DNA from: Candidatus Parcubacteria bacterium | GTDB lineage: Bacteria; Patescibacteriota; Patescibacteriia; CAIXNZ01 | Assembly (NCBI GenBank): GCA_026395685.1 | Contig: JAPLYG010000002.1 | Span: 1 to 33,630, forward strand | DNA length: 33,630 nt | Direction: 5' to 3' | Part shown: in pieces, positions 3,984 to 8,518 of the stretch | Position numbering within the stretch: position 1 is the first letter of the stretch | Layout: each line of letters opens with the position of its first letter | Program-made: the position numbers and the translations under genes | Notes under the pieces: generated by a model | The model's input: only the letters and a program-made list of their open reading frames with translations | Told to the model about the DNA's origin: nothing | The model's database searches: none

Positions 3984-4565
3984 ATGACCATCGAGCTGAA
4001 AGTAACGCTAGGACCTGGTGGCAAGTCAATTTCTCTAGGGCAAAAAGATGACAGCCGGTATCAACGCATTGCCGAGCAGTTAATACCTTTTGCCAGCCAA
4101 GACCGTGATCAAGACGGGAATATCATGTATCTGATTGAAAGATTGCATCAGGTCTTTGAAGGCCTAAAAATCAATACGGCTGAAATACCCATTATGATTG
4201 AAAAAGGATTTTTGGAAATCAATGACAAGCATCCTGAAAGCTTTTATGTGCACCTTAAAGGCAAGCCTAGCGAAGAGCTACCTGCACTAAAAACTAAAAC
4301 ATTACAAAGGCTTGCCAAGAGGCTGTATAAACGAGCATTGAAAGAAGAAAATTCCGAACTACGCTATCTATCCCGTTACCTGATTGAAATCTACCTTTCT
4401 AAATGGCTTCGCGATGCCGATGTTGTCATTCCCCAGCTAAAAGGCAAGGGGTACCTGAGGGAAAAGAAAAACGGGACACCCAATCCCGATTCCCAACAAA
4501 AATTTTTCTACATCTTTAGCACCCAAAAACAAAGCCGAACCTTTATGGACAAAAAGATTGTCTAA
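3984..4565 (+). CDS. Hypothetical protein
   Basis: Strong RBS (GACAGGAGGAAACAATG), own terminator downstream. Confidence 0.75.
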   Translation: MTIELKVTLGPGGKSISLGQKDDSRYQRIAEQLIPFASQDRDQDGNIMYLIERLHQVFEGLKINTAEIPIMIEKGFLEINDKHPESFYVHLKGKPSEELPALKTKTLQRLAKRLYKRALKEENSELRYLSRYLIEIYLSKWLRDADVVIPQLKGKGYLREKKNGTPNPDSQQKFFYIFSTQKQSRTFMDKKIV

Positions 4566-4644
4566 GTATTGCCAAACCCTCTGCCACGCGGAGGGTTTTT
4601 TTTATTAGAAAAGGCCCTCCTGAAAGCAGGAGAGCCTTGTTGTT

Positions 4645-5643
4645 TTAGCAATTTTTCAATCTTTCGTGGAAATGCTCGACGAGCGAGGCAAAGTAGCTGC
4701 GCTCGGCCATAACCAAGGCCGGGCTTTTGGAGCCGCTGCCCAGCATATTGCTTTTGGCCCGGCTCAGCATCTGCGAGCACTGTTCGCGTTCTTCCGCCGG
4801 CAAACTCTTGAGCATCTCGACGCCGAAAGCATCGAAGAGCTTTACGACTTTAAGCTCAGCGGTCGGGACATCTTTTTCACCAGACAAACGAACCTGGCTG
4901 AAATTTGCACCGCTGCTGGAAATCCAGCTCAGGACGTGAAGTTGGCGGGATGATAACCATCTTCCGTTAAGTTCACCTGACTGTTCCAGCAACTCGCTGA
5001 CAAACTCATCCAGTGAATGGGTAAGAAAAGGACGATTGCCGCAATTTTCGCAAATCGCCACATCAATATTCATCACCTGACCGTTAACACCCACGGGATG
5101 TCCGCAATTACGGCAAGTCATGGGATAAACCATGTGGTCAAAATCCCAATTGCCTTTGGGCTCGATGCCGTGCAATTGCAGCCAGTTCAGCTTTTCCCCA
5201 TCCACGGGGCCAAGAAGATCAAACTGATCAAATCGCCCCATGTCCACCAGCTCTTGCAAGTTGCGATCCTTGTAAATCTCCCATCTGATTGGAGACATCG
5301 CATGGTTTGCCTTAAGATTACCAAGGGCAATCCTGATTGCATCATCATCATTGAGACAAGTGAGAACGGGTCGGTCACTTCTCCGATTATCGGTATTCAA
5401 GACAAATTTTAATGTCCTCTTCTTGCCCCCAGCGGGTTCGAAATAGCACATGTAAGAGAAAGGAAGATGTTCAGCCGAATAGGCATCACGGTATCTTCGA
5501 ATCTGGGATGCCATGACCTCGGGCGTAGGCAGGCAGGAAAGAGCCAAGCCATACCCCATTAAATCTGCCGGCCAGCAGGGAATCTGGGGAAGTCCGGATT
5601 GGACTTTGGCCAAATATTCTTGGCGACGCGCTAACCCGTTCAT
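4645..5643 (-). CDS. Hypothetical zinc-ribbon protein, paralogue of the upstream gene
   Basis: CRNCGHPV...CENCG; shares WEIYxDxxLQ...DxGRxDQxDL...PxGxWDFD with 5640-6749; ATGA overlap. Confidence 0.75.
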   Translation of the reverse strand: MNGLARRQEYLAKVQSGLPQIPCWPADLMGYGLALSCLPTPEVMASQIRRYRDAYSAEHLPFSYMCYFEPAGGKKRTLKFVLNTDNRRSDRPVLTCLNDDDAIRIALGNLKANHAMSPIRWEIYKDRNLQELVDMGRFDQFDLLGPVDGEKLNWLQLHGIEPKGNWDFDHMVYPMTCRNCGHPVGVNGQVMNIDVAICENCGNRPFLTHSLDEFVSELLEQSGELNGRWLSSRQLHVLSWISSSGANFSQVRLSGEKDVPTAELKVVKLFDAFGVEMLKSLPAEEREQCSQMLSRAKSNMLGSGSKSPALVMAERSYFASLVEHFHERLKNC

Positions 5644-6749
5644 ATTGCTTCCTCCTCTGCGGTTGGGTGAAAGTTTGCATCTAGATAGGCCTGATACCTA
5701 TACAATATATCAATCAACTGCATAATAAAAGGAATTAGCGTTGACTCCATGGCTTTCCTCATAATTGTTTGAAACTCGAGGGCTGTCTTTGACATCGTTA
5801 GTGACAACCCTGCGAAATAGGAGTCAAACATCTCTGCTTGCACCTGGACATCTATCCAGTTAAAACTTGTATCTTCGCGCGTACCGATAACAGCCAACAT
5901 TTTTTCCGTTTCCTGCTGCAAATGGTCAAAAATCTGTTCACTACCTTTGCAACGGGATAAGGCATAAAAAATTGACTGCTGGTAGAGCTTGGGCATGCAG
6001 TCCATAGAAGATCCATCAACCATCTTTAGCATCTTATCAAAGTAATCCTGATCAAGCACATAATAGGACATGGCCTGATAGATCAGAAATGTCGAAAGGT
6101 CAATCAAATCGCTCAGAGAAAACCCTTTACGCACTGCTTGTACTGATTTCAGCAGTGAATAGCGCATAACCTTCTTAAGGTAAATTCTCTGTATTCTGTC
6201 AGGCTCAAAACATTTTCTCTGGCAAATAGGGCATTTGTACTCAACTGTTAAATCATGATGGCTTTTTAAAGGATGCATTTCATTGCAAAAGCCCAAGAGC
6301 AAGAATGAGTCAAAATCCCAATCTCCATGGGGATAAATGTTCTGACTCACAAGAGATTCCCGCTCCTTTGGATCGTGGCTATTCCATAAATCATATTGGT
6401 CATAGCGTCCTCTATCAAGGCAGCCTTGCAAAGCAGAATCCTGATAAATCTCCCAGCCGATTCCGCTCATATTTGCCTTAGTTGCCCAGTTTCCAATCAG
6501 GATTTTGACTGCCAGCAAACTATTAATCGTTTTACCGATAAGAATATCAGAAAAACGATCAGCAGTATTATAATCGTTAACCAGACGCACACAAACTTGA
6601 TTTTTAGGTAAAGTTTGCAGATAAAATCTGGTTACTATGCTGCAATTATCATAACGCAGCAAGGCACACATCTTTGAAAGAAAATGAGGTTCTTGACCAG
6701 AAGTTAAAGCCTTTGGTTGGCTAACAATAGATAAATCAGTGATCTCCAT
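5640..6749 (-). CDS. Hypothetical zinc-ribbon protein, paralogue of the downstream gene
   Basis: CPICQRKC; shared WEIY...WDFD block; RBS GGAGG before ATG. Confidence 0.75.
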   Translation of the reverse strand: MEITDLSIVSQPKALTSGQEPHFLSKMCALLRYDNCSIVTRFYLQTLPKNQVCVRLVNDYNTADRFSDILIGKTINSLLAVKILIGNWATKANMSGIGWEIYQDSALQGCLDRGRYDQYDLWNSHDPKERESLVSQNIYPHGDWDFDSFLLLGFCNEMHPLKSHHDLTVEYKCPICQRKCFEPDRIQRIYLKKVMRYSLLKSVQAVRKGFSLSDLIDLSTFLIYQAMSYYVLDQDYFDKMLKMVDGSSMDCMPKLYQQSIFYALSRCKGSEQIFDHLQQETEKMLAVIGTREDTSFNWIDVQVQAEMFDSYFAGLSLTMSKTALEFQTIMRKAMESTLIPFIMQLIDILYRYQAYLDANFHPTAEEEAI

Positions 6750-6806
6750 ATCAACCTCCTCTTTTTCCTAGAACTATTTGATTTACAAAGAACCAGACAA
6801 TAGCTT

Positions 6807-6835
6807 AACTTAACAAAAAAATAGACCTTTGTCAA
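6807..6835 (-). promoter_or_regulatory. Promoter TTGACA-N17-TAAGTT
   Basis: Consensus boxes upstream of 5640-6749. Confidence 0.6.
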
Positions 6836-6838
6836 GAG

Positions 6839-6866
6839 AAAACCCCGACAACTGCCGGGGTTTTTC
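6839..6866 (-). terminator. Terminator hairpin downstream of uvrC
   Basis: AACCCCG...CGGGGTT flanked by A/T tracts. Confidence 0.65.
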
Positions 6867-6873
6867 TTATAAA

Positions 6874-6924
6874 ATTTATACCCTGCTTTAGCAGGCAGCC
6901 TACCCACTAAAGTGGGGTATAAAT
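6874..6924. repeat. Two-hairpin element closed by an outer stem
   Basis: Outer ATTTATACCC/GGGTATAAAT; inner CCTGC-ttta-GCAGG and CCCACT-aa-AGTGGG. Confidence 0.75.
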
Positions 6925-6925
6925 A

Positions 6926-8518
6926 TTATTTTAACTTCCTTAAACTCCTGTGATATTTAATCACAAACCGATGCACTTCATCTCTACCCTTGATAAGTAA
7001 TTTAATCCCCGGCTGTCTCTGATCCAATTTCAAAGGCGCATCCTTATGCGGTAAATAAATTTCCTCTTCCCTTTTTGCTAAGGAACAGATATTAAGATCT
7101 AATTTTAATTCATGCAAAGCTTTCAAGGCGGCGTTTAATTGCCCCTTGCCACCATCAATAACAATCAAGTCTGGCAAATTCTTTTTTTCTTTAACTAAAC
7201 GATAATACCGGCGCAATACTATTTCAAATAACATAGCAAAGTCGTCTTGGGCATCCTTCCATCTAATCTTGAATTTGCGATAATTATTTTTTTCAAAACG
7301 GTCGTTAACCATCTGAATCATTGCTCCCACATTATATTTTCCCTGCAAAGTGGAAACATCAAAAAATTCAATCACTCTAGGCAAGGCTGACAATCCGAGT
7401 TTTTGCTGTAAATCCAAAATCCCGGGTTCCAGGCCCAAAGTGATTTCCAGATTATTTTTAACTAACTGTAATAATTCCAATTTCTCCCCCTTTTGCGGCA
7501 TTGCCAGATCTACCCTGGGCAAATAACCGGCAGTAAATTTGTCGGCCTTGGTTTGGCGCAGATATTGAGTGATTAAATTCTGCTCCTGCAATTTTTGGGG
7601 CAGGATAATTTCCCGCGGGATGAAATTGACTGAATAATATTGCTTGACAAAATCCTCGACTACGCCGGGATAATAAACGAATTGGAATTTATGGCGCGAA
7701 GTTATCACACCTTTATCAATATTAAATAACTGAAAATAAATTTTATTATTTACAATTAACCAATTCAAAACATCCTGGTCAAAATTCTTGGGCACATCAA
7801 TTTTCTGGCGTTCCTCTATTAATTTTACGGCTATAATCTGGTCACGGTAATTTTTTGCCAGTTCGTATTGCTGTTGAGCGGACGCTGAATTCATGCGCCG
7901 GCTTAAGTCGGCGATAATATCCCTTGTTTCGCCTTTTAAAAGTCTCTCAGCGTTTTTAATATTAGCCAGATAATCAGCTTCCGTGATAAAGCCCTGACAG
8001 GGTCCGCTGCAGCGACCAATATGATACTGTAAACAAACTTTTTTCGGCATTTTGTTGCAGGTGCGGATTTTAAAAATGTCACCCAGTGTTTTCAAAATCA
8101 AACGGCGGGCTGAACCCTCGGTATACGGGCCATAATATCTGCCGTGTTTTTCAATTTTACGCGCAGTGATTAAGCGCGGGAACTTCTCGTCTGTAACTTT
8201 AATATAGGCGTAACGGATATCGCCGCGCAGATCAATATTATATTTGGGCTGGTACTGGTGAATCAAGCTTTGTTCCAACAATAAAGCTTCCACTTCATTA
8301 TCAGTGGTGATAAATTCCACATCAGCGATATTTTTGACTAAAAGCCTTGTTTTGGGGTCCAGCTCTTTTTTCTGAAAATACTGGCTGATTCTTTTCTGCA
8401 AATCCTTAGCCTTGCCAACATAAATTACCTGGCTACTTTTGTCTTTATAAAGGTAACAGCCGGGTTTGTGGGGGAAAGTTAAATTTTTGCCTATTATCTT
8501 CATGTTCTTATTATACAT
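6926..8518 (-). CDS. uvrC: Excinuclease ABC subunit C, short form
   Basis: GIY-YIG start (PGCYLYKDKSSQVIYVGKAKDLQKRISQYF), UVR motif region, RNase H-like IDGGKGQLNAA; start may be 8503. Confidence 0.93.
   Translation of the reverse strand: MYNKNMKIIGKNLTFPHKPGCYLYKDKSSQVIYVGKAKDLQKRISQYFQKKELDPKTRLLVKNIADVEFITTDNEVEALLLEQSLIHQYQPKYNIDLRGDIRYAYIKVTDEKFPRLITARKIEKHGRYYGPYTEGSARRLILKTLGDIFKIRTCNKMPKKVCLQYHIGRCSGPCQGFITEADYLANIKNAERLLKGETRDIIADLSRRMNSASAQQQYELAKNYRDQIIAVKLIEERQKIDVPKNFDQDVLNWLIVNNKIYFQLFNIDKGVITSRHKFQFVYYPGVVEDFVKQYYSVNFIPREIILPQKLQEQNLITQYLRQTKADKFTAGYLPRVDLAMPQKGEKLELLQLVKNNLEITLGLEPGILDLQQKLGLSALPRVIEFFDVSTLQGKYNVGAMIQMVNDRFEKNNYRKFKIRWKDAQDDFAMLFEIVLRRYYRLVKEKKNLPDLIVIDGGKGQLNAALKALHELKLDLNICSLAKREEEIYLPHKDAPLKLDQRQPGIKLLIKGRDEVHRFVIKYHRSLRKLK

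Follow-up and report, generated by a model that had tools for sequence, protein, structure and literature searches.

We analysed a pair of overlapping genes, B and A, located in a 33,630-nucleotide stretch of DNA, the whole of which is referred to below as the window. The features of the pair are listed in Table 1. Both reading frames lie on the minus strand, exactly where the original prediction had placed them; the ATGA overlap was confirmed, with B lying upstream of A. In protein A, a core is followed by a CxxC...CxxC ribbon and a C-terminal helical region, while in B the core is followed by a zinc-ribbon-like segment and a long C-terminal helical region. The proposed paralogy of the two proteins was borne out by BLASTP (39% identity over 102 aa, E 5e-18). 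The hairpin found downstream of A agrees with the predicted common terminator. The predicted common promoter is only plausible, since the candidate 5' of B was read by eye and was missed by the promoter scan. A and B would be produced from a two-gene operon through translational coupling.

Table 1. Positions of the genes, expression signals and conserved segments of the A/B pair in the window
Feature	Position	Strand	Basis or description
Gene B, first of the pair	5640..6749	minus	369 aa; ORF and subfamily of 7 orthologues
Gene A, second of the pair	4645..5643	minus	332 aa; ORF and subfamily of 7 orthologues
ATGA overlap, B stop / A start	5640..5643	minus	sequence
AGGAGG Shine-Dalgarno of A, within the 3' end of B	5651..5656	minus	sequence
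AGGAGG Shine-Dalgarno of B	6755..6760	minus	sequence
Candidate promoter TTGACA-N17-TAAGTT (read 6835-6807), extended -10 (TGn)	6807..6835	minus	by eye; weak
Terminator hairpin downstream of A	4611..4638	minus	-20.3 kcal/mol, z -4.08 (fold)
A signature block, W121 to D169 (WEIYKD...GRFDQFDL...WDFD)	5137..5283	minus	invariant columns, 14 sequences
B signature block, W99 to D147 (WEIYQD...GRYDQYDL...WDFD)	6309..6455	minus	BLASTP, motif pattern, alignment
A zinc-ribbon-like Cys pairs (CRNC...CENC)	5041..5115	minus	alignment; sub-threshold Zn-ribbon HMM matches only
B zinc-ribbon-like segment, degenerate first pair (C155 NEMH) and CPIC	6222..6287	minus	alignment

The shared motif (WExY.D / GRxD..DL / WDFD) described in the original prediction was found in both proteins, and a degenerate DNA pattern derived from it had exactly two matches in the window, with 0.00 expected by chance. 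The Cys pairs said to follow the motif are also present, except that the first pair of the window B protein has the form CNEM-H, the second Cys of the CxxC having been lost. Comparison of 14 members of the family (330-410 aa) revealed that W121, G136, R137, D139, W166, F168, D169, C177, C198 and C201 (A numbering) are invariant, while R52, E122, D126, D167 and C180 are nearly so; the members are otherwise 18-55% identical. The CxxC...CxxC arrangement is kept in 13 of the 14 members (window B, with its degenerate first knuckle, is the sole exception), and the third and fourth Cys of the ribbon are present in all of them. This cysteine pattern suggests that A and B may bind zinc.

The orphan status assigned to both proteins was upheld: neither A nor B matched any entry of Pfam, NCBIfam, PADLOC, PHROGs or the PDB sequences above threshold. 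An alignment of eight members, compared with the first four of these libraries, and one of fourteen members, compared with Pfam, gave sub-threshold matches only, mostly to zinc ribbons; the best ribbon-like Pfam match of any member had E 0.013 (DUF4428) and the next E 0.026. Profiles searched against the PDB sequences retrieved generic ribbons (of the eS27, eL43, RPB12 and ZPR1 type) together with scattered other proteins, at E 0.04 or worse, and the weak profile matches falling within the ribbon itself (eS27, eL43, RPB12, ZPR1 and Gin) all had E 0.07 or worse. No clear match to a characterised family emerged from the HMM, profile or Foldseek searches, nor did a brief literature search yield any counterpart; the A/B family appears to be undescribed in the libraries searched.

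Structure prediction with AF2 from the two window proteins alone was unusable (pLDDT 33). A model of the A protein of locus L029, built from eight sequences, had a core (residues 60-160) with pLDDT values mostly of 77-88 by ten-residue block and two dips to 58-70; confidence was low outside the core (mean pLDDT 60, pTM 0.45 overall). The predicted order of elements in this core is helix-strand-strand-strand-helix-strand-strand. Foldseek searches with the model gave no significant match in the PDB (best E 0.67) or among viral models (best E 0.16).

One way of reading the signature block is that A and B constitute a two-subunit enzyme, in which the conserved W/E/D/R/D/D residues would form a catalytic or ligand pocket beside the zinc ribbon, and the two proteins would share or split the active site. 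The retention of R137, D139 and D169 in all members, and of R52, E122, D126 and D167 in nearly all, despite the low overall identity, speaks for this explanation. We nevertheless consider it rather unlikely. E122 is replaced by H in the A protein of L063 and D126 by S in the B protein of L061, whereas Y124 and D142 are altered in three A members, which weakens a simple catalytic reading of these four residues; furthermore, the HMM and profile searches revealed no similarity to any enzyme family.

The distribution of the family was examined by scanning 84,980 species genomes with a hand-built degenerate pattern, the matches being confirmed by tblastn. Among 29 matches there were three true loci, two of them in Candidatus Taylorbacteria (L016 and L018) and one in a further bacterium (L029); as the pattern may miss divergent members, these genome counts are lower bounds. 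The genomes of L029 and G457 were placed in one class (the class samples overlap). Three further genomes (G916, G951 and G1020) came from a profile search covering 381 genomes of the class of the window, and the family is therefore rare, occurring in four of the 381. In two samples of 380 genomes taken across the phylum, the pair was found in the window genome only, and it is absent from close relatives of that genome, among them one from the same genus and seven from its family. No relatives were detected in viral contigs, in phages (searched with B) or in plasmids (searched with A). Early scans of viral contigs (with A or with A and B) and a first scan of genome contigs, which used conserved peptides that were too strict, gave no match. 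A match in G058 (E 0.004, internal stop) was judged spurious.

In total, six further genomes carry the pair; they apparently all belong to Patescibacteria and represent two classes. Each of the seven genomes contains exactly two copies, which are adjacent, with B preceding A, so the expectation that the genes are always paired was borne out in these genomes by synteny. The reading frames overlap by 4 bp (window, L044 and L045), 8 bp (L063) or 20 bp (L061 and L062), and are separated by a gap of 10 bp in L046; the presence of both paralogues, in fixed order and coupled, is thus common to all seven. Pairing in the sampled genomes is close to certain. In a tree of the 14 sequences, a single branch (support 90/87) separates all A from all B proteins, which places the duplication before the pair spread.

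The two partners are not equivalent. In 20 of 21 genome pairs B has diverged more than A, and in every genome A exceeds B in both GC content and third-position GC (0.562 versus 0.416 in the window). In a gene-by-gene comparison of five loci, third-position GC was highest in A except in L045, where it was second or third highest.

The pair of the window is flanked by the genes zf (3562) and D (3984-4565) on one side and by uvrC on the other. In three relatives (G006, G002 and G007) the same site is empty: uvrC comes directly after a D homologue or D-like ORF, at a distance of 60-117 bp. In the window a terminator (AACCCC...GGGGTTTTTC) is situated between B and uvrC; in G006 it is placed immediately 3' of D. 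The pair can therefore be regarded as a segment inserted between D and this terminator, and the cassette was probably gained in the lineage of the window, gain being a simpler reading than loss in several relatives. The D-uvrC site (4565-6926 in the window) is variable, since G001, of the same genus as the window, carries different genes there, including a 585-aa ORF. Horizontal transfer, considered on the basis of tree conflict, was dropped, because the AU test does not reject the placement of the window in its class (p 0.58 and 0.34). Gene D was rejected as a third component, as relatives keep it without the pair, and a comparison of seven loci revealed no third gene common to all of them. 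L044 and L045 have ribosomal-protein and EF-Ts neighbours in common, some 6-10 kb from the pair. L061 and L063, which come from different families, have the same flanks: an aminoacyl-tRNA-synthetase-like gene to one side of the pair and a PHP-like gene to the opposite side. This suggests that in this lineage the pair has been inherited vertically at a single site.

Several other elements were observed in the window and at two other loci. A REP-like double hairpin is present at the 3' end of uvrC (6869-6929); the first hairpin, ATACCCTGCTTTAGCAGG, has 4 exact copies in the genome (control 0), and in three cases the second hairpin, with CCCACTAAAGTGG, comes next. An IS200-like Y1 transposase gene (PF01797; 19178-19759), possibly of the REP-associated type, lies in the same window as this REP-like repeat. 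The window also contains a LAGLIDADG-type homing endonuclease-like gene (PF14528; 2118-2750) and a gene for a 595-aa protein (189-1976) with phosphoribosyltransferase-like and SLOG cluster4 domains, possibly a nucleotide-related fusion. Fragments of the integrase, LPD3 domain, resolvase-recombinase and HTH/transposase-like kinds were noted close to the pair in L046 (2605-4078 and 11048-12754) and in L062 (291-1241).

The sporadic presence of the pair, its gain at an empty site, the transposase or integrase genes near two pairs and the faster divergence of B would be compatible with a conflict module of the defence or toxin-antitoxin type, i.e. a two-gene cassette protecting against phages or mobile elements. 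We judge this explanation to be decidedly unlikely, because the PADLOC protein models of known anti-phage defence systems gave no match, the viral, phage and plasmid collections held no relative, and defence genes were not recognised beside the pair. Moreover, the two proteins are rather long for a toxin-antitoxin system, and the common site in two families suggests stable vertical maintenance. The least convincing alternative, which we regard as improbable, is that the pair is not a conflict system but a lineage-specific factor that assists transcription or translation in association with RNA polymerase or the ribosome: the weak similarity of the ribbon to eS27/S27ae, eL43, RPB12 and Gin and the high third-position GC of A point in this direction, but these ribbon matches are insignificant, the family is absent from ~99% of the sampled relatives, and rpsB of the same locus (L044) is not GC-rich, so high expression of A need not follow from codon choice.

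The explanation that we tentatively prefer, although we hold it with somewhat less than even confidence, is that A and B are diverged subunits of an obligate heteromeric, zinc-containing cytosolic complex, which probably binds nucleic acid and acts as an accessory or conflict-type module. The data are best read as an obligate A:B complex, given that the pairing is strict, the order fixed and the genes coupled; from these features we infer a physical association of the two proteins. A single ancestral gene would have given rise to both, each consisting of a predicted alpha/beta core, the signature region (W-E-x-Y, G-R-x-D, W-D-F-D), a zinc ribbon and a helical C-terminal part. The better conserved A may serve as a scaffold and the faster-evolving B may provide specificity. 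The complex might bind RNA or DNA, as could be supposed from the presence of the ribbon and its weak likeness to RNA- and RNA polymerase-associated ribbons; against this part, neither the sequence nor the fold searches gave a significant match to a nucleic-acid-binding domain, and zinc ribbons occur in enzymes too. Its role in Patescibacteria would be that of a rare accessory regulator or a module of the conflict type. The patchy distribution and the empty site in relatives count for this explanation, whereas the low confidence of the model outside the core and the loss of one of the four Cys from window B count against it. As regards the original prediction of an enzyme or nucleic-acid-binding two-component system, the "two-component" part is well supported by synteny if it is taken to mean two obligate subunits. 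The assignment as an enzyme or nucleic-acid binder was not substantiated: E122 and D126, on which an enzyme would depend, are each substituted in one member, and the fold searches gave no significant match.

The genomes of Patescibacteria are small and contain few accessory genes. A 2.1 kb cassette that two classes have kept strictly paired, and that occupies a common site in two families, is therefore likely to be useful. It is conceivable, but in our opinion unlikely, that the proteins represent a new alpha/beta-plus-zinc-ribbon fold, confined to Patescibacteria and acting solely as an A:B heteromer in a role outside the described systems; if so, this could be, for example, a new mechanism of nucleic-acid-directed regulation or immunity in episymbiotic bacteria. 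The seven pairs supply a signature (WExYxD...GRxD...WDFD...CxxC...CxxC) for metagenome mining, and the A/B pair is a small, expressible target for structural and binding studies.

Comparison with known systems points to three groups of proteins. The helix-strand-strand-strand-helix order of the core resembles the three-strand-plus-helix DNA-binding units of the AP2-like and integrase arm-binding type, as well as the dsRBD; neither likeness is backed by an HMM or Foldseek match, and it may be treated as a lead only. The top sub-significant match in both the PADLOC and the Foldseek search was to the RuvC plus zinc-ribbon region of Cas12-type proteins (Cas12f in PADLOC, E 0.054, covering the ribbon part only; Cas12-1, 8wrr and 8wrp, E 0.67 in Foldseek), in which a zinc ribbon likewise follows an alpha/beta region. 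We abandoned the Cas12 and RNase H-like interpretations in view of these E values, the TM-score (0.09-0.10) and the absence of the RuvC D-E-D triad, as none of the acidic positions on the first core strand is invariant in the 14 sequences; A and B also differ from Cas12 in their size and in always forming a tandem duplicate. The third group comprises the generic zinc ribbons (Zn_ribbon_8, Zn_Ribbon_1, RPAB4/RPB12, ZPR1 and eS27/S27ae), which share with A and B two CxxC pairs ~18-20 residues apart within a small segment. The matches fall far below the curated cut-off (13.1 bits at best for A, versus 34.4 for Zn_ribbon_8), and nothing in these ribbons corresponds to the W/GRxD/WDFD core or to the pairing of paralogues.
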